Source: a virus. From it: DNA of 56,740 nt. Where the stretch lies: positions 1 to 56,740 of the IMG/VR virus record IMGVR_UViG_3300009285_001317; one strand, 5' to 3'. The position numbers and the translations under genes are program-made. Positions 6,844 to 56,577 of this stretch are shown here, piece after piece (the stretch's first letter is position 1; each line of letters begins with the position of its first letter). The notes under the pieces are model-generated. The model saw nothing but the letters and a program-made list of their open reading frames with translations, was not told the origin of the DNA and searched no databases.

Positions 6844-7313
6844 TGGGAACATTGGATCACACAACAATAACCGAGAAACTTGAGAAGAAGTTCACTCGCG
6901 AAGAGAAGGAAGAACTGACGCAGGAGCTTGTCCAGAAGATGACCGAACTCGGGGATAAAAGGGATGAGCAGAAGGAGAAAGTGGCACATCTGAACGGGCA
7001 GATTAAGACGCTCGAAAAAGACATCAAGAGGCTGGCCCGTTGCGTAAAAACTGGCTCCGAAATCCAGTCAGTCGAAGTGGAGATCACGAAGGATTACGAG
7101 AAAGGTGAGAAGCGGTTCATGAGGCTCGATACCAACGAGGTATACAAGACCGTCCCCATGGACTACTCGGAACTCACAGCCGGCAGACAGAAGCCGCTAC
7201 CTCTGGACGAACCCAATGGGCAGGAACCCGAGGTAGATGCGGGAGAGGACAGTGGCGAGAGTGAAGAGGAGACGGAAGGGACAGACGAAACAACAGAAGA
7301 AGGGGGAGAATAA
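6843..7313 (+). CDS. coiled-coil protein with acidic tail
   Basis: A 156-residue protein: residues about 8-70 are a heptad-like charged coiled coil, followed by a small central segment and a very acidic C-terminus (the last 35 residues are mainly Glu/Asp/Gly/Thr). GGGGAGG ribosome site. It directly precedes the SMC-like ATPase and may be its partner, by position only. The end overlaps an alternative upstream extension of that ATPase. Confidence 0.65.
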   Translation: MGTLDHTTITEKLEKKFTREEKEELTQELVQKMTELGDKRDEQKEKVAHLNGQIKTLEKDIKRLARCVKTGSEIQSVEVEITKDYEKGEKRFMRLDTNEVYKTVPMDYSELTAGRQKPLPLDEPNGQEPEVDAGEDSGESEEETEGTDETTEEGGE

Positions 7314-7314
7314 A

Positions 7315-8868
7315 TTGATAGTCACTGGCATAACAATCAAGAATTGTTTCTCATTGAAGGATGTAACGCTGAAACCTGATAGCAAATTAAACGTATTTAT
7401 CGGGAAAAACGCAGCAGGTAAATCGTCCATAATTAAGGCTATCGAAATAGCGTTACGCGGCACAAACGATAAAACAGTTATCCGGAACGGGTCAGATAAC
7501 GGAGAGGTAATGCTGGACCTGACCGACAAGGTAGTGGTTGACCGGATATTAAAGCAAAAGGGGGCGAATAAATTGACGGTAAAGGCGCCAATGTCTTTTC
7601 CTGGCGGTGAGACTAAGGTGGTGCCTTTACCGTCGCCCCAAGACTTCCTCGATGGCGTGATCAGCGACTTCTCATTCGACCCCATCCAGTTTGTACTCAT
7701 GGACGGCAAGGAGAGGGCGAAATACCTGCGCGAGATCTTCAAGGTGAAGGCCAACCCCGAACTCCTCGCGGGTATCATTTCAGAGGAAGTCTTGAAAAGG
7801 CTGGACTTCACAAAGGATGGGCTGGAGGTTCTGAAGGATGCGGAAAACATCGTATACCCGCAGCGCACAGAGATCAATAAGATCGTTTCGCAGAAAAAGG
7901 CCCTCTACGATGCCAGTATCGCGAAACTCAACGGCTTCAACCCTGAGACGTTCGTGGACAGGACCGGAGAGATCGAGAAGCAGATAGATGATTGCAATAC
8001 ACGTCTGACAGAAGCGAGGACACTGGAGAAGACGCAGAAGAGCCAGAAAGAGAGGATTGAGAAACTCGAAGTTAAGAAGAAGGACGCCCAGGGTAAACTC
8101 GACACGTTAGACGTTGCGGCAATAGCGGCCATCCCTACACTGGAAGAAGAGATCAAGGCGATAAACGAACAGATCAACGCACTGCTACAACTGAAAGCCA
8201 CGAAAGATTCGGCGCTCGAACAGGCACAAAATATCCGGACGACACGGGACGACCTGACCGAGGAAATAGCGAGGCATCAGGAGACCATAGATTCATACGA
8301 TGTCAAAGATGTCCCTGACGTGGAGGGGATCGAAAAGGAACTGGCGCTCATACTCGAGGAAGGACAGAAAGCAGCAGAAGAGAGGGACCGCAATGAACAA
8401 TACGTAAAAGCTCAGGAGGTCCTTGCCGAGCACAATGAGAACAAGAAGAAGTCTGAGGCCATGACAGAGACCATTGATGCCCTCCGGAAGACATTGCCCG
8501 AGAAGCTCCTTGCTGAGGCACAGATACCGATCAAAGACATCAGGGTCGATGGGGAGAAAGTGTTCATCGGGGATATCTCCATAGACAACTGCTCAACCAA
8601 GGAACAGGTTGGGATATCGCTCGACATCGTGAGAAAGCTGAACGAGGACAAACCCCTTAAGGTGATATGTTTAGACCGGGCCGAGTCCCTCGATCCCGAG
8701 GCACTTGCTGAGTTCGACAGGCAGATTCAACCTGACGAATTTCAGTATTGGATAACCCTCGTGTCGGGCCGGAGTGCTGAAGGGCTCTCGGGGAATATCT
8801 ACCATGTTCAGGCTGGGGAAGTCACAGAGGTTGGAGCGGAGGAGAAAGAGGGGCAATCAATAGCATGA
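7315..8868 (+). CDS. SMC/RecF-like ATPase (AAA_23/RecN-like)
   Basis: A 517-residue protein. Walker A GKNAAGKSS lies near residues 29-37; a long coiled-coil middle (about 180-400) follows; near the end come a signature-like CSTKEQVGISLD and Walker B KVICLDRAESLD (about 449-460). This is the layout of SMC/Rad50/RecF-type ATPases acting on DNA ends or recombination. TTG 7315 behind GGGGGAG is preferred. An ATG at 7237 would add a basic stretch that overlaps the preceding gene. Confidence 0.8.
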   Translation: MIVTGITIKNCFSLKDVTLKPDSKLNVFIGKNAAGKSSIIKAIEIALRGTNDKTVIRNGSDNGEVMLDLTDKVVVDRILKQKGANKLTVKAPMSFPGGETKVVPLPSPQDFLDGVISDFSFDPIQFVLMDGKERAKYLREIFKVKANPELLAGIISEEVLKRLDFTKDGLEVLKDAENIVYPQRTEINKIVSQKKALYDASIAKLNGFNPETFVDRTGEIEKQIDDCNTRLTEARTLEKTQKSQKERIEKLEVKKKDAQGKLDTLDVAAIAAIPTLEEEIKAINEQINALLQLKATKDSALEQAQNIRTTRDDLTEEIARHQETIDSYDVKDVPDVEGIEKELALILEEGQKAAEERDRNEQYVKAQEVLAEHNENKKKSEAMTETIDALRKTLPEKLLAEAQIPIKDIRVDGEKVFIGDISIDNCSTKEQVGISLDIVRKLNEDKPLKVICLDRAESLDPEALAEFDRQIQPDEFQYWITLVSGRSAEGLSGNIYHVQAGEVTEVGAEEKEGQSIA

Positions 8869-24140: not shown

Positions 24141-26708
24141 ATGTCATCTGAATCGGAACGAGTAGCAGAAGAGAACGCCAATGGAAAGAACAATCACTTA
24201 CCTGTAGGCCAACCCGAAGGGCATATCATCCTGGCAGACTTTCTTGAGAAGTATGGGGCAGAGGATGTCAGGTTGTCGTTAAGCACCCTGCAACACGCCT
24301 GCCGTAAACAATTCCTCCTTGCTAAGAAACAGCGACTCCCGATGCAGATAGGGAACCGTAAAACGAAGACCTTGGTGACTCGCTGGTTCATACTCGACTT
24401 ACCTCCGCAGGAACATCCCGGATGGGAGAAGTTCAATAAGTTCTCCCAGAACCGGCTGTTGAAAAAGTCTACGAAAGCAGTCCTTAAGAACTTCGATAAG
24501 ATGGCGCCAATCCTGTTAGACAACTATGACAACCGGGAGAACCAGGACCAGACGCTATTTAAACTGTCTGAACTGTCAAAGATACTCACCATCTCTCAAG
24601 AGACTATTATGTATTTGGCGATGGTCGGTATTAAGGGATACGGGCAAATTCCCATAACGAAGATTAACCCGAAGCAGGTGCAACTGAGAGCAGAGGGTGG
24701 AGACTATACCTGCCGGGACCCAAAATGGGACCAGCGCTCAACCGTGTTCTTCGAGCACAAAGATATCCGGAGGTTCCTCAGAAAGGAACTACTCACCAAG
24801 AAGTTCAACCTGGCAGAGGATAAACTGAAGCAGAACAACCTGCCTGAGATAATCGCGTCACAGGGGTATTATGTCTACGACCCCGACAAGGTACACCCGT
24901 TTACATATGAGGGCTTCTTGGCATGGGCCAAGGAGAACATAGTCTTCTACGATAAGGTGTCGCGGAAGATCATGCCCTTCAAGCCGAGTGCGAAACAGTT
25001 GGAGTTCTACCAGAAGGTGTTCCTCCAGAAGTCCCCAGGTCTATTGAAATACAAGATCCTCGGTATCTGCCGGCCCCGAGGCGATTACAAAACATTTGAT
25101 GCCGCGCTACTGGTTCTCTTCAGGTTCTTCAACCTTGAGAAAGAACTTATCTACCTTGTCACGAACTCGGTTCAGCAGACGACTCACCTGATATTTAAGG
25201 AGATAATCACCGCGATGAAATACTCGCCAACCCTATCAAAGATGTTGGATACGCCAGGACTGGATATCCAGAAGGACGGTATCTATCTTCGGTCAGGTAG
25301 AGGCGACGAGAACGTGATTAACTCTATCCAGATCATCTCAGCAGAGGGTGGCGCCAGATCGAACGCAACGTGCTTTGCATGGTCAGAGGCGTGGAAGTAC
25401 AAGGGGAACGAGGTGAACGTAGCGGAACTCGAGCAGTCTATCCGAGGCGTGGACAATGCGTGGTTCGTAGTTGAATCTACGGTTGCACCAAAGGGGCACT
25501 TCTTTCAACGGTATTACAAAATATCGCTCGACGGGGGAGACAAGGTTTTGTATTTCCAGTATTACGACGGCTCGCAGAGATGCAACCTTAAAATTAAGAA
25601 CGATCCGGACTATCTTGATTTCCTCCGGAAGCAGTGGGGGACATTATATTTCAATATGTTCTTCGGGAACCGATGGGAAGATGCAGCCATCAGTGTTTTC
25701 TCGAAGGACAGCATAATTGAGATAGGGTATCTGGGAGTACATGGAAGAGTATCGAGAGACAGGGAATTAATCGAGACCGTCTCTCAGATTGTGGACATAG
25801 GTGGCAGAGTCAATAAACTCGAAGCTGGGTACGATGTCAGGGTCCTACAGTTTGAGCAACAGCAATTAATAAAGCGGCTCAACCCTATAGAGCAATACTA
25901 CAAAGATCAGTTCCCTGCACCGAACGACATACTGATAGAACTTGGACAGATATTCAACTGTGAGTTCATCGTAGGGATAGGGCTCGACAGAGCGAAACAT
26001 TCAGAGTCGCGGTCTATGAAACAGACCCCAGACAGAACCGTACAGGCGACAGTGGCTCGTGGCATCCTGGACCCTGCGATATGGGGAACCGACAGGATCT
26101 TCTTTCTGCTAAACCTGATCATCAATACAGAACTTTCGTTTCAGACAATACTGAAGCAGCTTGAGCACGACTGCAATATGTACGCAGGAGGGTTTGCGTA
26201 TATCGACCTTGAGGACTATAACGCCATCGACTTAAACAACGAACTGAGAATTCTATTTGGGGAGGAGTCATCATGGATAGCTCCCATCTCATTCAAACAT
26301 CAGGAGACGATATTCACTGAGCTCGATCTGGCATTACAGAATGGCTATTTCAAAGCGCCCCACTTGAACATCTGGACAGATAAAGAGGATGGGGTAATCT
26401 ACAGCCCCCCTGAAAAGGGGTTCGAGGATATACTCAGGTCGGAACTCAGCGCGTTCGAGGCACATGCTGGGACCAACAAGGAAGGTAAGGGCCGGCAAGG
26501 ATACTACGGGTCCTGCTACAAGAAACAGACTGGGAGAACAGCGCTTGGGGAGGCCAAGGATGATACGGTGTACGCCATTGCCCATGCGATACATGCCTCA
26601 ATCCGGGGGGACATTCCTGCAGTATTGATGCACACGAAGTTTCCAGAGACAATGATCAATAAGGACGTGATTGCCGATTACGGGAGTTACGGATTGAAAA
26701 CATTTTAA
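24141..26708 (+). CDS. terL: terminase large subunit, extended N-terminus
   Basis: An 855-residue protein, much longer than the usual 450-600. Residues about 1-290 are an added domain with an HTH-like LFKLSELSKILTISQETIMY (about 140-160). Then comes the ATPase, with a degenerate P-loop RPRGDYKT near 311-318. The RNase H-like nuclease has GIGLDRA near 612-618 and a late acidic AKDDTVYAIAHA near 805. It packages DNA into the procapsid. The N-terminal domain may do the work of a small terminase, for which no separate gene is obvious. Confidence 0.85.
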   Translation: MSSESERVAEENANGKNNHLPVGQPEGHIILADFLEKYGAEDVRLSLSTLQHACRKQFLLAKKQRLPMQIGNRKTKTLVTRWFILDLPPQEHPGWEKFNKFSQNRLLKKSTKAVLKNFDKMAPILLDNYDNRENQDQTLFKLSELSKILTISQETIMYLAMVGIKGYGQIPITKINPKQVQLRAEGGDYTCRDPKWDQRSTVFFEHKDIRRFLRKELLTKKFNLAEDKLKQNNLPEIIASQGYYVYDPDKVHPFTYEGFLAWAKENIVFYDKVSRKIMPFKPSAKQLEFYQKVFLQKSPGLLKYKILGICRPRGDYKTFDAALLVLFRFFNLEKELIYLVTNSVQQTTHLIFKEIITAMKYSPTLSKMLDTPGLDIQKDGIYLRSGRGDENVINSIQIISAEGGARSNATCFAWSEAWKYKGNEVNVAELEQSIRGVDNAWFVVESTVAPKGHFFQRYYKISLDGGDKVLYFQYYDGSQRCNLKIKNDPDYLDFLRKQWGTLYFNMFFGNRWEDAAISVFSKDSIIEIGYLGVHGRVSRDRELIETVSQIVDIGGRVNKLEAGYDVRVLQFEQQQLIKRLNPIEQYYKDQFPAPNDILIELGQIFNCEFIVGIGLDRAKHSESRSMKQTPDRTVQATVARGILDPAIWGTDRIFFLLNLIINTELSFQTILKQLEHDCNMYAGGFAYIDLEDYNAIDLNNELRILFGEESSWIAPISFKHQETIFTELDLALQNGYFKAPHLNIWTDKEDGVIYSPPEKGFEDILRSELSAFEAHAGTNKEGKGRQGYYGSCYKKQTGRTALGEAKDDTVYAIAHAIHASIRGDIPAVLMHTKFPETMINKDVIADYGSYGLKTF

Positions 26709-27352: not shown

Positions 27353-27481
27353 GTGGGATGCGGCTACACGTTGCACTGGACTTATGGCGATAATTGGCAG
27401 TGCCCACGTTGTAGCAGAAAATATAGAGAACATCAATTCAACCGTAAAAAGAAATGGGGGAGGAAATATGGAAAAAGATGA
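27353..27481 (+). CDS. small zinc-ribbon protein
   Basis: A 42-residue frame starting GTG 27353. CGYTLHWTYGDNWQCPRC and SRKYREH form a four-cysteine zinc ribbon with a strongly basic C-terminus (FNRKKKWGRKYGKR). It overlaps the next gene by 14 bases. It is short, and its start has only a weak ribosome site, but the motif looks like real protein. Confidence 0.45.
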   Translation: MGCGYTLHWTYGDNWQCPRCSRKYREHQFNRKKKWGRKYGKR

Positions 27482-27872
27482 ACTGGAGAAATCGCTGGGT
27501 CGGGAAGTTATTGAGTTGAAACTTGATTTACAGGGGTTTTCATTGGAGGATCTCAAGAGGTGTTTATTTTTTGTGAAGTTCAACGATAACCCTGCTGGCA
27601 AGCTGGCATGGCATGTATGGGCAAAGATGACGCCTGAACAAAAAGAATCAACCAGGCTCACATCTCCAGTAAAAACTGGGGCAACCATATTCCTGATGCC
27701 CGGCATGTCATTCGCAGTCTTATTGCCGAACGGGGAAGTGAGGGACTTCGGGGAACCACCAGCAGAAATCACCAATTACACCTGTAACATTGACGCCCTT
27801 AATACTGAGAGTTTTAAGGAAGCACTATTGAACAATGAGGCATTCCGAAAACTCGTAAAGGAGACCATATGA
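27468..27872 (+). CDS. protein sharing a segment with the portal protein
   Basis: A 134-residue protein, ATG 27468 behind GGGGGAGG. Residues about 40-90 (NDNPAGKLAWHVWAKMTPEQ, ...KTGATIFLMPGM) resemble the portal segment around residues 300-345 (TDTPAGKLAWHLWSKMTTAQ, ...PGSKVFLLPGM), including a 24-base identical DNA stretch. A small acidic helical domain follows. Probably a portal-related accessory or a gene built from a portal fragment. Role unknown. Confidence 0.6.
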   Translation: MEKDELEKSLGREVIELKLDLQGFSLEDLKRCLFFVKFNDNPAGKLAWHVWAKMTPEQKESTRLTSPVKTGATIFLMPGMSFAVLLPNGEVRDFGEPPAEITNYTCNIDALNTESFKEALLNNEAFRKLVKETI

Positions 27873-28123
27873 TCATCGCGGTCAGGGCCATAGTTTGTAG
27901 TGACAAAGTTAATGATACTGGCTTCATCTACGAACTGAAAGCCAAAGCCTTTATGAGGGGACGATGGGAGGATGCGAAGGTATACGTAAATGAGATCCTT
28001 AATGCCGACAACCTTGTAGGTCTCGATGTCAAAATGATGAAGATGGAGGAGTTCAATAGGAGCATCAATATCGGCATCGAAGATGAAATCAAAAAGGAGG
28101 TCAACTTTGAGACAAAGATTTAA
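27869..28123 (+). CDS. unknown 84-residue protein
   Basis: ATGA-coupled to the portal-like gene. Mixed alpha-beta, acidic C-terminus (MIIAVRAIVCSDKVNDTGFI and on). Its 3' end overlaps the next gene by about 17 bases and contains that gene's AAGGAGG site. Not recognised. Confidence 0.6.
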   Translation: MIIAVRAIVCSDKVNDTGFIYELKAKAFMRGRWEDAKVYVNEILNADNLVGLDVKMMKMEEFNRSINIGIEDEIKKEVNFETKI

Positions 28124-28688: not shown

Positions 28689-28718
28689 TTGACAGAAAGA
28701 TTACGTTTCGTTTATCTA
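28689..28718 (+). promoter_or_regulatory. possible late promoter
   Basis: TTGACA (28689-28694) and TATCTA (28713-28718), 18 bases apart, in the 168-base gap before the portal gene. The -35 is perfect, the -10 only partial. This is where transcription of the morphogenesis genes could start or be reinforced. Confidence 0.45.
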
Positions 28719-28748: not shown

Positions 28749-28786
28749 AAGGCCATTGATGGGAAACCGTCAGTGGCCTTTATCAT
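28749..28786 (+). terminator. terminator-like hairpin before portal
   Basis: An 11-bp stem (28749-28759 with 28770-28780, one G-U) with a 10-base loop, followed by the T-rich TTATCATTT. It stands about 20 bases before the portal start and downstream of the possible promoter, so it may act as an attenuator. Confidence 0.5.
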
Positions 28787-28799
28787 TTCAAGGGGGATA

Positions 28800-30497
28800 A
28801 TGGATAAGGTTCCAGCAGACTTAAAAGAGATTTTCACTCCCGCGCAGTGGAAGAAACTGCAACCCGAAGACAAGATGATCGTTGCTTCTGGGGCATGGCA
28901 GGACTCCTCGAATTTCGGGACCAACGCTACTGCAATCGACACCACGATTGACCTGTTCCCCTATCCCAAGACCGGCTGGAAGGCGACTCACAAAAATTGG
29001 AGAACGCTTCAGAATAAGGGCTGGCAGATTTATAATGGGTTCGGTCCCTTACGAGCAGCCATCGAATCGAAGGCCGACTATGTTGCGAAGGGTCTTCAGA
29101 TAAACGCAACCCGGCACTACGAGCTCGATGCTTTCCTCCAGGACATCTGGTACTCCCCCCAGAACGAGATGTATAACCGCTTCACGTCTTGGATGATCAG
29201 GATGTTCGCTGAGGTTGAAGTATTTGTCCTTCTGGTTTTTGACGATGAAGGCAATGTCACTATTCGGAACCTTGAACCCCAGAATATCGGTAAAAGCACA
29301 ACCGATACTGGGCTTTTATCTGACCCCGACGACGTAAACACAACCCTCTTTTATCTGCACAAATCGAAAGACGGTGACGAGTTAATCCCGGACGCCAGGT
29401 TTATCCTTGAACCCGAGTATATGACCGAACGGGCTAAGGCACTCAAAGGGGACCTTGACCAATCCCTGATAAAGAAATTCACGAAGAGCCCGAAGCATAG
29501 GGCTATCGGCGGATACCGGCGCTTCGTCCTGCATTGGAGAAACCTGACTGGAGAGATGAATATCCCCAGAGGGACCTCTTCAATCTCTGCGATTATCGAG
29601 TGGGTCAACCTGCTTATCATGGCGATCAAATGGGAGCTCGATTATAAAAAAGCTCTTTGCGCGTATACGATCCTCATCAAGTTTACCGATACTCCTGCTG
29701 GCAAGCTGGCATGGCATCTGTGGTCGAAGATGACGACTGCACAGAAAGACGCGACCAACCTTACGAAACCCCTCACCCCAGGATCGAAAGTCTTCCTGTT
29801 GCCCGGCATGGATGTGAAGATAGAGAGTCCAACCCTTCCGAAGATGTCCGGCTCAAACGACGACCTCGTGTTTCTGAGTGGTGCTGGAGCCCGGACACCA
29901 CAGGATCTCTGGCAGGGACAGTCTGCCGGGGCAACGAACGCGTCACTGAAAGCATCCCGGCATCCACTCATGATGGAGATCGAGGCCCTTCAAGAGAAGG
30001 CTGAGAGCTTCTTGCGATATAAGCTCCTTCGATCTTGCATAACCGCCAAAATTAAGATGGGAGGTCAGTTTACCCCTTTTGCATGGATGACTGACGGGAA
30101 GGGCGGAGAAACTTTGACGCTCGACCCCGAATACGAGAAGCCGTGGGTGGAGGTAGTTTTAAAGGGCAAGGCAACTGTCTCCACGAAGAAATGCGAGCCT
30201 GTAGACCCCAAGATCATCAGCTTTAAATTCCCGGTTATAAAACTTGACGCAGACGCAAATATGGGAACCCTCTTCTTCGGCTCAAAGAATTCCGGTATGC
30301 ACGGAGGAGGGATATCAAGAAAGACACTTATGGAAAAGGCGGGGGTCCACGGGTTCGACCAGGAGATACGAGAGCATTACATAGAGAAAGAAGAATACGG
30401 TGATGTCACGCCAGCCCCAGACCAAGGACAGGCTCAGGGCGATAACAAAGACAACCCTCAGAAAGAAAAGGGAGGTGAAGGTGGGGCCAAAGAGTGA
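28800..30497 (+). CDS. portal protein
   Basis: A 565-residue protein after AAGGGGG, placed directly after the terminase region and before the lysis and protease genes. PLRAAIESKADYVAKGLQI, YDPEY-like LEPEYMTERAKALKG and WVNLLIMAIKWELDYKKALC fit a phage portal clip/stem/wing layout. The C-terminal 40 residues are a Gln/Asp/Lys-rich tail. It forms the dodecameric vertex through which DNA enters. A segment is shared with the gene at 27468. Confidence 0.7.
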   Translation: MDKVPADLKEIFTPAQWKKLQPEDKMIVASGAWQDSSNFGTNATAIDTTIDLFPYPKTGWKATHKNWRTLQNKGWQIYNGFGPLRAAIESKADYVAKGLQINATRHYELDAFLQDIWYSPQNEMYNRFTSWMIRMFAEVEVFVLLVFDDEGNVTIRNLEPQNIGKSTTDTGLLSDPDDVNTTLFYLHKSKDGDELIPDARFILEPEYMTERAKALKGDLDQSLIKKFTKSPKHRAIGGYRRFVLHWRNLTGEMNIPRGTSSISAIIEWVNLLIMAIKWELDYKKALCAYTILIKFTDTPAGKLAWHLWSKMTTAQKDATNLTKPLTPGSKVFLLPGMDVKIESPTLPKMSGSNDDLVFLSGAGARTPQDLWQGQSAGATNASLKASRHPLMMEIEALQEKAESFLRYKLLRSCITAKIKMGGQFTPFAWMTDGKGGETLTLDPEYEKPWVEVVLKGKATVSTKKCEPVDPKIISFKFPVIKLDADANMGTLFFGSKNSGMHGGGISRKTLMEKAGVHGFDQEIREHYIEKEEYGDVTPAPDQGQAQGDNKDNPQKEKGGEGGAKE

Positions 30498-36680: not shown

Positions 36681-37448
36681 ATGCGGCAGAATTATAGTCA
36701 TTCTATAGAGACTAAACGAAAGATGAGTGAATCCCATAAAGGGAGAGTTTTTTCTGAGGAACATCGACGGAAGTTAAGTGAAGCACAGAAAAGAATAGGG
36801 ACCAGACCTCCTTCAAGGTCTGGGATTAAAACTTCAGAGGAAACAAAAAGAAAAATCAGCGAGGGGAATAAGGGTAAAGTTATATCGGAAGCGCAACGGA
36901 AACAAATAAGTGAAAGGATGAAAGGTAATGTTCCTTCAGGAGAGACAAAAGAAAAGCGCAGATTGAAACGGAAGGATTACAAACCCACAGAGGAGACATG
37001 TAGGAAAATAAGTGAAAGTTTAAAAGGTCGTCCAATGTCTGATAAAGCCCGTGCTGCTTTATCATTTAAAGGCAGAAAGCATTCAGTAGAGACACGCAAT
37101 AAACTGCGAGAATAACACATCGGTAAACAGAAAGGCGACAAAAACCCAGCATGGCGAGGGGGAACTTCGTTTGAACCTTACGGGTTGGAGTTCAATGAAG
37201 ATTTAAAAGAAGTAATAAGAAACAGGGACCGACGCAAATGTGTGATATGTGAAAAGACGGAGTTGAAAAATGGGAAAGCCTTACCCATACATCACATTGA
37301 TTATGTGAAAACTAATAATAACCCAAACAATCTTGTGTCTCTATGTCGCACATGTCATAGCAGAACAAATCATAACAGGGAGCACTGGATTCAATTCTTT
37401 AAGGGGAGAACTTTAAAATGGAAAAGACAGTCAAACAGAAAAAAGTAA
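36681..37448 (+). pseudogene. HNH homing endonuclease with NUMOD3 repeats, interrupted by a stop
   Basis: The frame starts at ATG 36681 after GGGGAGG. Repeated NUMOD3-type DNA-binding motifs ([13 protein letters not shown] and similar) run to a TAA at 37113. The same frame continues, without a shift, HIGKQKGDKNPAWRGG and the HNH core (CVICE...LPIHHIDYVKTNNNPNNL...CRTCH) to 37448. So one in-frame nonsense codon separates DNA binding from nuclease. The last 31 bases overlap the next gene. Looks like a decaying selfish element. Confidence 0.8.
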
Positions 37449-44703: not shown

Positions 44704-45236
44704 ACAGATTATTCGTAGGGAAACATACATATGGGCATACCAACATTGCCCTGAACTTCTGGGATGGGGATGTCGCTGTTTGCCGGATAGGGGCTTATTG
44801 TTCTATCTCTACGGGGATTTCAGTATTTTTGGGAGGGGACCACAGGCATGACTGGGTTACAACCTTTCCATTCCCTGAGAGGTGGAGAGTAAAACAGATA
44901 AAATGTGATGAAAAGTCTCATCGCGGGAAAGGAGATGTGATAATAGGGAACGACGTTTGGATAGGCTCGGACGTTACGATATTATCTGGCGTGACAATTG
45001 GAGATGGGGCCGTAATAGGTGCCTGTAGCGTTGTGACGAAAGATGTTCCGTCCTACTCAGTGGTAGCCGGCAATCCTGCGAGGGTCAAGAAACTAAGATT
45101 CAGTGAGGTACAAATACAGAACTTATTGAACCTGAAATGGTGGGAGTGGAATGACGAGAAAGTTTTAGAAGCCATACCACTACTGCTCAATAGCGATATA
45201 GATAAATTTTTAAACACGTACAAAGGGGAGAATTAA
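44700..45236 (+). CDS. hexapeptide-repeat acetyltransferase
   Basis: A 178-residue protein. The repeated I/V-G-x-x-x-x hexapeptides ([33 protein letters not shown]) form a left-handed beta helix, and [16 protein letters not shown] holds the catalytic His of CatB/xenobiotic-type O-acetyltransferases. It acetylates a hydroxyl, probably of a sugar. Confidence 0.85.
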
Positions 45237-46768
45237 TGTTAACCGTAAGCGTTGCCGTCATGAATCCTGACACAGAGATGTTCAAAAAAATGGTCACATC
45301 TCTCGTCAAGCATACGCCTGAGATGTCGAAACTTATTGTCTTCGATAATGACCCGGAGAATGACGCATGGGTGAAGTGTATCGACGAAGAACTGCCCACT
45401 CATATTGCATTCATAAGACAGAAGGTGGGGGTTAATATTGGTTTTGGTGCGGCACATAATATGAACCTCGAAGAAGCGGATACCCCATACTTTGCCGTGC
45501 TGAATGACGATGTGGAGTTCTTCGAGAACTGGAGCTCTCCGATGATTGAGACGCTTCAGGATGAGAAAGTTGGGCAGGTCGGAATGATGACGCATCAGTG
45601 CAATTCTCTCAATGCAAAGGCCCAGGGGTATTACACGGAGACGGATAACCCGGAATATGTCGAGGGGTCCTGCTTCATGATGAGGACATCGGTAGCGAAG
45701 CAGTTCGGACTCTTCGATCCAGCATATGAGTTTGCGTACTACGAGGATGGGGATCTGAGCCTCCGTCTGAGAAAGGCCGGGTATATTTTAAAAGCCATCA
45801 ATACGAGATGGATACATTACCGGGCCAAGACTTCATCTAAGAACCCTGTCGATATAAGAGGACATCAGCTTAATAACGAGCACGTATTTAAATCCCGGTG
45901 GAACAATTACATTGCAAATAAGAAATTCACTCCCCTGATGGTGGTGAAACGTGGCGGGGCATATGGTGACGTGTTTTTGCTTGAGCCAGTATTGGAGGCC
46001 CTGAAAAAGAAGTATGGCTGTGCTATCGCGATCATGAGTCAGGTCCCGGAAATGTTGATCCACAGCCCCAATATTGACGGGCACTTCCAGTATCAGGCAC
46101 CAGCCCAATGCGAATACTTCGTGGACCTCGATTATTCATACGAAAGGGATTTCAGGAAGCATATAGTCGATGCGTACGCGCAGCTTTCTGGTGTCACCGT
46201 TACGCGGAAACATGGGACAGTCTATACGTCTGCTGCTGACCAGAAGACAGTCGGCAGAATGCTGAATGGTCTCGAGGGTTTCGTGACTGTCGATCTCAGC
46301 ACAACATGGGGAGCGAAACAGTGGCCGAAAGAGCAATACGGTAAATTAATCCTTGCCTTGAAAGATATGGGCAAGACGGTTGTGGGGATAGGGAAGACAG
46401 ATCAGTACATAGGGAACGTGGGGATCGACTACAATTATGTGAATGTGTTAACCCCTCTCCAGACGGCAGAGTTCATGTCACATGCAGACATGCACATAGG
46501 GCACGAAGGATTACTCGGACATTTCGCCCAGGCGATTAATATAAAGCACGTCATAATGTACGGCTGCACATCTCCAGAGTTCGTGAGCGATACTTCTTTG
46601 GAGACATGGCAAGGGGTGATAAGCCCCCTGGCTTGTCAGGGTTGTCGGCATAGGTTCGCAGCGGGATGTAGCGTGCATTGCCACCGTGACAATGCCTGCA
46701 TGAAGGCAATCACTGTTGATATGGTGCTCGATAAAGTCGGGACGTTCAGCGAGGCACTGACCGTATGA
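45236..46768 (+). CDS. two-domain glycosyltransferase (GT2 plus GT9-like)
   Basis: A 510-residue protein. Residues 1-220 are a GT2 domain (KLIVFDNDPEND, NIGFGAAHNMNLEEADTPYF, FAVLNDDVEFF, VEGSCFMMRTS). From about 235 on comes a GT-B domain (VVKRGGAYGDVFLLEPVLEA, VTVDLSTTWGAKQWPKEQY, MHIGHEGLLGHFAQAINIKH) like the heptosyltransferases of family 9. Two transferases in one chain could add two sugars in succession. A fusion is seen directly; specificity is unknown. Confidence 0.8.
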   Translation: MLTVSVAVMNPDTEMFKKMVTSLVKHTPEMSKLIVFDNDPENDAWVKCIDEELPTHIAFIRQKVGVNIGFGAAHNMNLEEADTPYFAVLNDDVEFFENWSSPMIETLQDEKVGQVGMMTHQCNSLNAKAQGYYTETDNPEYVEGSCFMMRTSVAKQFGLFDPAYEFAYYEDGDLSLRLRKAGYILKAINTRWIHYRAKTSSKNPVDIRGHQLNNEHVFKSRWNNYIANKKFTPLMVVKRGGAYGDVFLLEPVLEALKKKYGCAIAIMSQVPEMLIHSPNIDGHFQYQAPAQCEYFVDLDYSYERDFRKHIVDAYAQLSGVTVTRKHGTVYTSAADQKTVGRMLNGLEGFVTVDLSTTWGAKQWPKEQYGKLILALKDMGKTVVGIGKTDQYIGNVGIDYNYVNVLTPLQTAEFMSHADMHIGHEGLLGHFAQAINIKHVIMYGCTSPEFVSDTSLETWQGVISPLACQGCRHRFAAGCSVHCHRDNACMKAITVDMVLDKVGTFSEALTV

Positions 46769-53800: not shown

Positions 53801-56577
53801 TTGGAGACAACAAAACTATCAACGAGAAAGGGAAGGCTATCGACGGTCTTTCCGATTCAACCAAGAAGCTCTCTGCGAATTTCGGAAGCATAGATGTGAA
53901 TGAATTCCAGCAGGGGTTACTTGAGAGCGTGGAGAGGGTAAAGTCCGAGCTTGGGGACATTGATAAATACTACCTGCCATCTATTAATAAGCAATATCAA
54001 GAGGCCCCTGAAGCAGTCATGGCCCAGCTTGTTGCGTTACGTAATGCTGAAGAACAGATGAGAAACCTTGAGCAGAAAGCCCAAGACATGAAAGATCTCA
54101 TGGCAGATACATCTACAGTCAGAGGATTCTGGTCAGTGTTCTCACAGCTTGGCAAGACAGCTATAGATGAGATCATAAGTAAGTGGGACAAATTCAAGAA
54201 GGGCCTCGCAGAATTTATAACGGAACATGCTCCTAAGACCAAACCCGTATCACCCGATGCTGCTCCCGAGGGTATGTATGCTTTCGGGCAATTTTTAGAG
54301 CAGTACGCTCCAGATAAGAAAATTAAGACCGATGCTGCGGTCGTTGCTGAACAGATCGAAAAACAGATTGAAGCCCAAAGGGAGTCCATCTTAAATATAA
54401 GAAAGATTATTAAAGAGTCCCTCGGGTTCACCGCGAAAGGTATGGGAGATCTCTTCAATAGTGCCCTGAAACTCCCCATTGACCAACAGGAGGGAGCGGC
54501 ATACGAGATAGTCGCCAAAGAGTCTGAACGGTATTTTATGGCTCAGTACACGAAGCTCAGGGAAGCGTCAGAGAAGGCCAATGAGCAACGCAAAAAAGAC
54601 GGACAGACGCCTTGGTCCGCAGGCGAGATAGATAAGATGTCCGCTGATGCCGCGATGGGGACCACGTACAACTATCTTGAGCAGCTTACAAATACTTTCA
54701 AGGCGAAGCAGAAAGAATGGTTGGAGATTCCCATAAAGAACCATAGGGCACTGGTAGGGAACATGCAGAAGGAGCAGGCGAAAGAACTTGAATCATACAC
54801 ACATCTTCAAGACATGAAGAAACTTAAAGAAGACCATTTAACGGAATCACACAAGGCCAACCTCCAGAATAGACGTGAACTGCTTGAGCAATATTACAGC
54901 CACGACATTGTTTCCGTGGAAGATTATTACCAGCGGAAACAGGAGATGATGAAGGAATCCACAAAACTTGAAGTAGATGCTCTCGAATCTGGGGTTGAAG
55001 ATAGAACATTACGTAATTTAAAGGCGTTGGCTCAAGCGCAAGATGTGTACAATTTAGCCGAAAAACACCCAGCGTTAGGGAAAGATAAGGGAAGCGCTGA
55101 ATATCTCAGAGCAGATGCCGACAGGTATGAGGCGTCCCGGAAGATCGAAGCACTCAATAACAAAATCATCGAGGATTATGCTCAGACCAGGAATAAGCAG
55201 GAAGAGTTAAATGAGGCACTGAAATACCAACTGGAGTTAATGATAGCCCAGGCAGCAATAGCCCAGGCAACCAAGCCCTATGAGACCGAGAAGAAGCGCC
55301 TCGACATTATAAAGGAAATCCAGAAGGTCAACATCGACGCCAACGAGCTCGCGGGGAACTGGAACGAGGTACAGAAGTTGAAGATCGAGATGCTGGAGAC
55401 AGAGAAGGAACTGTCTTTAAATAATATAGACACTCAAATCGCCACAGTAGATGCCCTGATTAAAATTGCTGGTGGAGCGAATGAGCAACTGGAAAGACAA
55501 TACGATCTTCTCCTGCAACTCAGGGGCGTCACCGAATCGCTGGCGAACGCAAAGATCATTGACGAGGAGAAGATGTCAACCCTGGGGGGGCAGTTCAAGA
55601 AGTCCTTCGAGGATGCGATCAAGGATATTAATAAACAGTTTCAGACAATGGCGTATGACTTCGGTAAGACGTTCACTGATTCCATGAAGGGCGCTACATC
55701 CGACCTTTTCAATGAGGCGTTAAAGGGATTCCCTGAGAACGCGAAGATCAAGAAACAGATATCCGACATCAATACTGAAAAGGGCGGAGTAGAGTCGGAG
55801 ATGGGGGATGTCCAGAAACAGATCGAGTATCTCAATAAACAGAGAGAACTCCTGGACAACCAGTTCAAGCAGGGGCACATGACCGACGAGACTTACTACC
55901 GGCGCCTCGGTGAATTAAACCAGCAATTGAACGAGATGAACCAGAAATGGAGAGACGGCCAATCCGAGATACGGAAGTTCAATGACGAGATCCAGAAGTC
56001 GAAAGAGGGTCTTACGAACTGGCTCAGTTTCTTCAACCAGGTCTTCGATGCGATCAAGAAGCAGATTGCGGACATACTGGCGGGGCAGATGATGAAGTTG
56101 CTCTGGATGCTGGCATTGAGGATAGGAGGAGCGTTTGTAGGTGGAGCTACTGAGGCCGGTGCATCTACAGCACCAGCGGGAATGGGAACTGCACATTCAG
56201 GCGGTTACATTCTACATGAGGGCGGCTACGTTCCCCGGTATCACTCAGGCAGCGGAAAGCTCGGCAGTCTTGCTTTCGATGAGGTTCCTGCGATACTCCA
56301 GACCCGCGAGAGGGTCTTATCGAGAGATCAGAATGTGATGTTTGAGGAACTGGCTGCAATCCTGAGCGACCTCAAGAGGGGTAGCCGTTATTCCCAGGGT
56401 GGCTCATCATCGAGCAATCAACCCATAGTGGTTAACAATTACAGCACGAATGTTCACGCCATTGACTCAAAAAGTTTTAAGGAAGTGTTGAAGAAGAACC
56501 CTGCCGGCGTCATAGAGATAATGCATGAGAGCGGGCGCAGCAATGGATCATTCAGAGACTTAGTAAGGTCACAATAA
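50827..56577 (+). CDS. tail tape measure protein
   Basis: A 1916-residue protein. The first 500 residues are mostly coiled coil. About 555-900 is the TP901-type core (FQLEWFAGAGTIFAVIGAFR, VAAIEIAKIGLQLIRAGMSA, FSNLGYRASTIGTGMAQLLS) with several hydrophobic stretches. A second coiled-coil region runs from about 1180 to 1750, and a Gly/Ser-rich end follows. It sets tail length and helps DNA entry. By the usual 1.5 angstrom per residue, about 280 nm of tail is inferred. Its start overlaps the chaperone extension. Confidence 0.92.
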   Translation: MANSGPKNLSIQITVLPPNPADLKKTTDAIYTQFRILSSDIHYRFNLLFRSLNIQQLISQVNEAKKLMAGGMTGGVDFKGSAEFEKMTKQIKASSVEIDNLKRKLIELKQVGATQPVEVKKAVSTFIPYSASQSEDIKRKMSQELAWTEELDRKAIAKAKKKQDALDALANRNAQMSGGGPRGAHTDVAGLYNLSESTGVYTRLGSKQRIQEQLRGETQTREELNRLLQDISEKRQKVAETNRSVESQWQDLERKRLDQTIKSNMPRKLYGMLKPGEGEFLARNTTTLNEAFSSVIQDRFGNGAATSKNYGQLIKDTKMLIEATKGFPEARTQLLSYMDSLITKIPPADEQAKRFLKTMQKLHSSTLYGKVLPSVAKQTGISSDILSDYGLSESELKRMGSLYGALRNAQLKGTNISANQAKEIQYLAGKYKEFGEAVKMAGVNLDQFINKQKGAAAGASPYDKLYGKLEGALKHTDAREMQKYWTQLISGDTIKGSGPLQAKGINSGVAAEVMRMKTESPEAFKKMRDLFQSYGVEIDKTHGKMGSFIASTRNFIKFQLEWFAGAGTIFAVIGAFRQLSSVALEFEYTMKNIQAITGESDENISLLAETTKQLATETPVAAIEIAKIGLQLIRAGMSAREASLAMETVTKVVTLTGEDAKTVGNTITTAFFAWGMAMGDSAKNIQKAGEIIAGTLNYSRLQVEDLGEAYNYFGAVAKAFNKSFLETNAILAVFSNLGYRASTIGTGMAQLLSELEAPTKKAREALRTLKIDPEQISGMRKFADVIDVFTKAGLTAGQAMSIFQVRAGRLLLGATVVGGQAFRDMEEKIDKSRQLTEGFSVAMESTKNQWLKFWNIVQRIAIDLGNVFLPVLQKIVQVLGILTDIISHTTHFFTSGATQVFAYALMIWGLVKAYKALNVQMVATQSFISVNAFRNMAKGTIGATEMMTIPLAGAMTKSIAKYASGFLKIFKSPTLWGIAATVLATNVIDRMLGDNKTINEKGKAIDGLSDSTKKLSANFGSIDVNEFQQGLLESVERVKSELGDIDKYYLPSINKQYQEAPEAVMAQLVALRNAEEQMRNLEQKAQDMKDLMADTSTVRGFWSVFSQLGKTAIDEIISKWDKFKKGLAEFITEHAPKTKPVSPDAAPEGMYAFGQFLEQYAPDKKIKTDAAVVAEQIEKQIEAQRESILNIRKIIKESLGFTAKGMGDLFNSALKLPIDQQEGAAYEIVAKESERYFMAQYTKLREASEKANEQRKKDGQTPWSAGEIDKMSADAAMGTTYNYLEQLTNTFKAKQKEWLEIPIKNHRALVGNMQKEQAKELESYTHLQDMKKLKEDHLTESHKANLQNRRELLEQYYSHDIVSVEDYYQRKQEMMKESTKLEVDALESGVEDRTLRNLKALAQAQDVYNLAEKHPALGKDKGSAEYLRADADRYEASRKIEALNNKIIEDYAQTRNKQEELNEALKYQLELMIAQAAIAQATKPYETEKKRLDIIKEIQKVNIDANELAGNWNEVQKLKIEMLETEKELSLNNIDTQIATVDALIKIAGGANEQLERQYDLLLQLRGVTESLANAKIIDEEKMSTLGGQFKKSFEDAIKDINKQFQTMAYDFGKTFTDSMKGATSDLFNEALKGFPENAKIKKQISDINTEKGGVESEMGDVQKQIEYLNKQRELLDNQFKQGHMTDETYYRRLGELNQQLNEMNQKWRDGQSEIRKFNDEIQKSKEGLTNWLSFFNQVFDAIKKQIADILAGQMMKLLWMLALRIGGAFVGGATEAGASTAPAGMGTAHSGGYILHEGGYVPRYHSGSGKLGSLAFDEVPAILQTRERVLSRDQNVMFEELAAILSDLKRGSRYSQGGSSSSNQPIVVNNYSTNVHAIDSKSFKEVLKKNPAGVIEIMHESGRSNGSFRDLVRSQ

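Follow-up and report, generated by a model that had tools for sequence, protein, structure and literature searches.

The window, by which we mean the whole stretch of DNA analysed here, is an IMG/VR virus record of 56,740 bases. Between its genes for the large terminase and the portal protein lies a small gene that shares one segment with the portal gene and a second segment with the tape measure gene. The features considered are the following.

24141-26708, + strand: large terminase (TerL), a predicted clip partner, upstream of the small gene (phrog_9, E 0.00052; homologous TerL in relatives, E down to 5e-78).
27456-27463, + strand: ribosome-binding site GGGGGAGG, 4 nt 5' of the ATG, read from the sequence.
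27468-27872, + strand: small gene, 134 aa (BLASTP to the portal, alignment to the tape measure, codon bias, ATGA overlap).
27564-27728, + strand: clip-domain copy, residues 33-87 of the small protein (28/55 identical to the portal of the same genome; pairwise dN 0.38, dS 1.35).
27591-27614, + strand: 24 nt identical to the portal gene (PAGKLAWH), at the position of the beta12-alpha4 loop and the start of helix alpha4 of the clip.
27759-27842, + strand: tape-measure-like C-terminal motif, residues 98-125 of the small protein, PAEITNYTCNIDALNTESFKEALLNNEA (12/28 identical to tape measure residues 1866-1893).
28800-30497, + strand: portal protein, 565 aa (relatives L003-L042, model and fold search, gene order in relatives).
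29667-29831, + strand: portal clip domain, residues 290-344, putative source of the copy (model elements, invariant P344, SPP1 clip definition in PMC9701221).
50827-56577, + strand: tape measure protein, 1916 aa (PHROG tape measure families, best E 1.8e-37).
56422-56505, + strand: tape measure C-terminal motif PIVVNNYSTNVHAIDSKSFKEVLKKNPA, like the C-terminus of the small protein (alignment; the tape measure of the relative G001, L043, terminates in a motif of this kind too).

Judged by its sequence features, the small gene looks like a real gene. It starts with ATG behind a strong ribosome-binding site, its stop codon overlaps the ATG of the next gene by 4 bases (ATGA), and its codon bias is coding-like solely in the annotated frame (+0.135 per codon; the five remaining frames score -0.03 to -0.47, and known genes 0.07 to 0.24 by the same measure). 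The encoded protein comprises an N-terminus (residues 1-32), the clip copy (residues 33-87), a linker (residues 88-97), and a tape-measure-like C-terminus (residues 98-134). Self-comparison revealed no convincing source for residues 1-32 within the window, a sequence profile search of the Protein Data Bank returned no match, and a search of Rfam likewise returned none. An unlisted 42-aa ORF with a GTG start (27353-27481, + strand) shares 14 nt with the start of the small gene and may therefore be translated just before it; its product combines a zinc-ribbon-like CxC...CPRC motif with a strongly basic tail. No relatives were found for the neighboring gene at 28110.

The larger gene at 28800-30497 had been designated a portal in the initial annotation, and this designation is borne out by its relatives, by gene order, and by structural modeling. 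The protein has no useful match to a Pfam or PHROG family. A model built with AlphaFold2 from 31 sequences (at least 30 relatives; pLDDT 67.9) recovered the lambda portal (8xow) as its best match in a fold search (Z 16.7, rmsd 6.0 over 316 residues), followed by the portals of Chi, 80alpha, SPP1, and Haloferax tailed virus 1. The best 50 rows from each of Foldseek and VIA-align were all portals or portal-containing assemblies. Among the matches listed, most relatives whose contigs extend far enough share the gene order TerL, portal, and S49 protease, and in relatives the major capsid protein comes next. Collectively, the model and its matches indicate that 28800-30497 encodes a true tailed-phage portal. 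A hairpin of 14 pairs with a 4-base loop (28749-28780, + strand) lies just 5' of the portal start, and the gap that holds it also contains a promoter-like TTGACA-N17-TTATCT, identified by eye at about 28690-28718; the portal transcription unit may start at the portal itself. Further downstream, a homing endonuclease gene (36681-37115, + strand; phrog_314, E 7.5e-16) directly follows the major capsid gene.

The similarity between the small gene and the portal is readily delimited. Residues 33-87 of the small protein align with residues 290-344 of the portal in an ungapped core with 28 of 55 positions identical, and a two-sequence BLASTP comparison returned 31/64 identities (70.9 bits, E 1e-19), in agreement with the initial report of some 50 shared residues. 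That report had placed the portal segment at about 29690-29820, which does contain shared sequence, and its extent is here revised to 29667-29831. At the DNA level, 86 nt match at 80%, and within them the 24 nt of CCTGCTGGCAAGCTGGCATGGCAT recur unchanged (27591-27614 and 29694-29717), as had been noticed previously; a further 18-nt stretch matches at 94% with the same spacing of 2103 nt between the small gene and the portal. In 57 kb, chance alone would not be expected to produce a repeat of 24 identical nucleotides. In a blastn comparison of the whole window to itself, the clip pair was the top match (E 1.7e-15), and the next two self-matches had E values of 0.002. The DNA match, the BLASTP result, and the self-comparison together rule out chance or low complexity as the source of the similarity, and an assembly duplicate is ruled out by the 62 of 165 bases at which the two copies differ.

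The shared stretch coincides with a defined element of the portal fold. In the portal model, it is preceded by a long helix (residues 260-286) and contains a strand (290-295), a helix (299-310), and a strand (337-342), after which comes P344, a proline that is invariant in 31 of 31 portal sequences. The clip of SPP1 gp6 has been defined as residues 281-326; it begins where helix alpha3 ends, extends as far as Pro325, with which alpha5 starts, and consists of beta12, alpha4, beta13, and beta14 (PMC9701221). Because the elements of the model match the SPP1 boundaries, namely the end of stem helix alpha3 on one side and the hinge proline of alpha5 on the other, we conclude that by predicted topology the shared stretch is the whole portal clip and nothing else. 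The domain resembles the clips of the SPP1 (gp6, residues 281-326), lambda, and 80alpha portals in its position within the portal fold, in its beta-alpha-beta-beta order, in the invariant hinge proline with which the next helix starts, and in the glycine-containing loop that precedes helix alpha4. Unlike those clips, it is here also present outside the portal, in a protein of 134 residues that has foreign ends and no stem, wing, or crown. The two alternatives offered initially, namely that a portal domain also exists as a free-standing protein or that part of the portal was duplicated upstream, thus both turn out to be right, since the segment is the clip and is closest to the portal of the same genome.

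Conservation between the two copies is uneven. Residues 45-59 of the small protein form the most conserved block (dN 0.12; the three other blocks have 0.34, 0.56, and 0.66), and by position this block matches the SPP1 loop that carries N290, G293, and E294 (PMC9701221). The beta12-alpha4 loop of SPP1 (Asn290, Gly293, Glu294) is required for packaging, and the SPP1 clip region contacts the terminase first and the gp15 adaptor later (PMC9701221). The counterpart of this loop here is TDTPAGKLAWH, which contains the 24-nt exact match. Eight of the ten clip columns that are conserved in the family are kept in the small protein, as are the hinge proline and the domain boundaries, and 17 of the 24 substituted residues of the copy occur in other portals. 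The invariant proline P327 of the portals is a threonine in the copy.

A second duplicated piece, missed in the initial annotation, makes up the C-terminus of the small protein. Residues 98-125 are identical to residues 1866-1893 of the tape measure at 12 of 28 positions, with a Smith-Waterman score of 68, compared to a maximum of 47 in 5000 shuffles and a score of 37 for the next best ORF in the window. The DNA of this motif is also similar to the tape measure gene, and AGTTTTAAGGAAG is identical in both. About 17 residues near the end of the tape measure have no counterpart in the small protein, and the final residues AFRKLVKETI and SFRDLVRSQ look alike by eye. The Pfam profile PF24165 (TMP_C) gave no match to the small protein at E values up to 10 and did not match the tape measure of the window either, and in the relative G001 the tape measure (L043) has a sub-threshold match to it; the C-terminus of the small protein resembles the C-terminus of its own tape measure rather than the TMP_C profile. 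In 80alpha, the C-termini of the tape measure bind Tal at the tail tip (PMC11661146). Another of the tail-region genes (45236-46768, + strand) combines an N-terminal match to glycosyltransferase family 2 with a C-terminal match to glycosyltransferase family 9.

Relatives of the window emerged only through the alignment of the small protein with the portal, when the shared blocks were used against viral contigs; searches with one protein at a time against phages, plasmids, and viral contigs yielded no match. A second round with the portal alignment yielded more relatives, including one contig of a Desulfobacterales MAG, and a search for closer relatives via the capsid protein returned only the L015 and L016 contigs, which were already in the set. 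The survey of related phages that had been suggested for the pair shows that it is not conserved: the 20 portal-bearing records each have one clip and no free clip, and no second clip copy was found in any relative locus examined. No free clip was found either in 395 bacterial genomes from the phylum to which the Desulfobacterales MAG belongs, and a scan of viral contigs for the AGKLAWH motif detected it otherwise in one portal only and in no free clip. The 20 records, the 395 genomes, and the motif scan argue against a widespread family of free-standing clips.

The gap between TerL and the portal, which in the window is occupied by the small gene, an HNH gene (DUF968), and further small ORFs, is variable among the relatives: it is nearly closed in L014, holds zinc-ribbon-like ORFs in L012 and L013, and holds HNH-like ORFs in L024 and L032. 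The TerL genes of L013 (3601-7215), L024 (1068-4016), and L012 (2-1711) appear to be interrupted, within the Walker A motif (GEGK/S or T), by an intein whose middle part is homing-endonuclease-like. The record L003/G001 (82,045 bases) encodes a portal and an S49 protease homologous to those of the window and an adjacent capsid protein that is unmatched by the capsid protein of the window; by sequence, its head module and that of the window look mosaic between portal and capsid. Elsewhere in the window, a RecF/SMC-type AAA ATPase (7237-8868, + strand; phrog_1499, E 9.4e-59) has a moderate match to a model of the AriA defence ATPase (E 1.7e-14).

Among the matches listed, the clip copy is closer to the portal of its own genome than to that of any relative, and the two share the absence of a glycine that is kept by all other portals in the set. 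The proximity to the own portal suggests that the clip was duplicated in this lineage. The C-terminus likewise scores higher against its own tape measure (68) than against that of the relative G001 (46), and the two proximities taken together indicate that the small gene is a chimera of portal clip and tape measure that was built within this lineage. The source pieces lie about 27 kb apart and were joined in genomic order and orientation. As guesses, the chimera may have formed by repair after an HNH cut or from a large deletion product.

Such routes lead to the main rival of a functional reading, namely that recent illegitimate recombination between the portal and tape measure genes left a chimeric ORF, expressed or not, that is non-functional and not maintained. 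Repair of an HNH cut, or the reinsertion of a portal-to-tape-measure deletion product, would serve as examples, and the order and orientation of the pieces are what one long deletion would leave. The small gene adjoins the HNH gene in a gap that takes in foreign ORFs among relatives, and the chimera is not conserved but unique to this record, where unique applies to the records searched, many of which are fragments, with near-identical records possibly omitted and further relatives potentially in existence. Against this origin as debris, the frame of 134 codons has stayed open despite differences at 62 of 165 bases (dS 1.35, dN 0.38 over the whole clip), and identity between the copies follows a coding pattern (43/55 at second, 35/55 at first, and 25/55 at third codon positions), part of which stems from the portal being under selection itself. 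When neutral change was simulated at matched divergence, at least 28 identical residues were kept in 5 of 5050 runs, a result that overstates selection if the portal branch changed much, given that the simulation assigns all change to the copy. From these comparisons, constraint on the clip of the small gene is probable but unproven, and we regard non-functional debris as a doubtful explanation that nevertheless commands serious attention.

How the clip would behave outside the portal bears on any function. A single-sequence model of the small protein has a pLDDT of 57.6, with values below 50 over residues 41-53 and 55-68, and a fold search with this low-confidence model returned only unrelated matches with low Z. 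The initial annotation had held that a short alignment combined with different predicted folds would speak against a shared domain; the alignment is indeed short but ends at domain boundaries, and the fold comparison is limited by the confidence of the small-protein model. In SPP1, the sheet of the clip is formed between subunits (PMC9701221), so that an isolated clip may not fold and a free one would need another third strand. In the same low-confidence model, linker residues 91-95 form a strand beside the hairpin, which is a hint only.

We propose, tentatively, that the gene encodes a soluble clip mimic that competes for partners of the clip, be they terminase, adaptor, or a portal-sensing defence system. 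The small protein would be expressed alongside the packaging and head genes, folding as a soluble clip that does not form a ring. It would then display the beta12-alpha4 loop and the surface of helix alpha4, and thereby compete for proteins that bind the portal clip. Candidate partners are the head-tail adaptor, the large terminase, or, on the host side, a defence protein that recognizes the clip in the manner of SpbK. In monomeric form, or as a small oligomer, the mimic would occupy the partner without providing the twelve-fold platform, such that early or non-productive docking of the motor would be restrained or a portal-triggered immune response blunted. Clip mimicry is supported by the copying of the full-length clip with its boundaries and hinge proline, by the match of the best-kept residues (45-59) to the SPP1 loop for terminase and gp15, and by the retention of conserved columns in a gene with a ribosome-binding site, an ATGA overlap, and coding-like codon bias. 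It is further supported by the known role of clips as docking sites: in HK97, TerL docks on the portal clip (PMC10359639); in SPP1 (PMC9701221) and 80alpha (PMC11661146), the C-terminus of the adaptor does so; and the YonE portal binds the TIR defence protein SpbK through its clip (PMC12847820; PMC11984713). It is weakened by the restriction to one genome, the change of P327 to threonine, the poor model, and the possibility that an isolated clip does not fold, and it leaves the tape measure piece unexplained.

The nature of the competitor's target separates two versions of this proposal. SpbK activation requires clustering on the YonE portal ring, and A291P, a single substitution in the YonE clip, served as a non-interacting variant (PMC12847820). 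These observations show that a clip alone can dock a non-structural partner, and phages counter such docking, as exemplified by Nip, which acts against SpbK (PMC11984713). A free clip could act as a decoy specifically directed at a portal-sensing immune protein, binding the domain with which the sensor recognizes the portal, without clustering it, and so protecting the phage. We consider this narrower version unlikely: Nip is not a copy or mimic of the clip and binds the TIR domain instead (PMC11984713), the small gene has no match in the PADLOC library, the phage has no known host or defence system to be countered, and here too the tape measure piece is left unexplained. Competitive mimicry is the most likely reading, and we make no firm choice between terminase or adaptor and a host sensor as its target.

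The tape measure piece is addressed by another reading, in which the clip fold was reused with a new role in a virion or neck protein, for example by adding to the edge of the ring formed by portal or adaptor, with its tape-measure-like tail binding the partner of the tape measure C-terminus. Each piece derives from a virion protein and serves as a contact element, the clip for terminase and adaptor and the tape measure C-termini for Tal in 80alpha (PMC11661146). The respective partners, however, sit at opposite ends of a siphovirus tail, which makes a single bridging position hard to see, and the relatives assemble virions without such a protein. We consider this reuse in a virion or neck protein quite improbable.

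The finding is real, sharply defined, and unusual in structure, and the function as a mimic is a candidate. No description of a free portal clip, a truncated portal paralogue, or a chimera of this kind was found in the open-licence papers searched. The clip is the one portal surface shared by the packaging motor, the tail adaptor, and at least one bacterial immune protein. With yet more reserve, we suggest that phages can turn their own clip into a separate, soluble mimic, joined in this case to a tape measure tail, which competes with the portal ring for terminase, adaptor, or an immune protein that senses the portal, as a decoy or assembly regulator built from within the genome. If true, this would suggest that decoys or regulators can evolve from the virion parts of the phage itself, and a natural, soluble, single-domain clip would be a tool for testing competition among clip partners. 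The small gene, assembled from two distant structural genes of the same genome, also represents a clear case of a route by which orphan phage genes arise.
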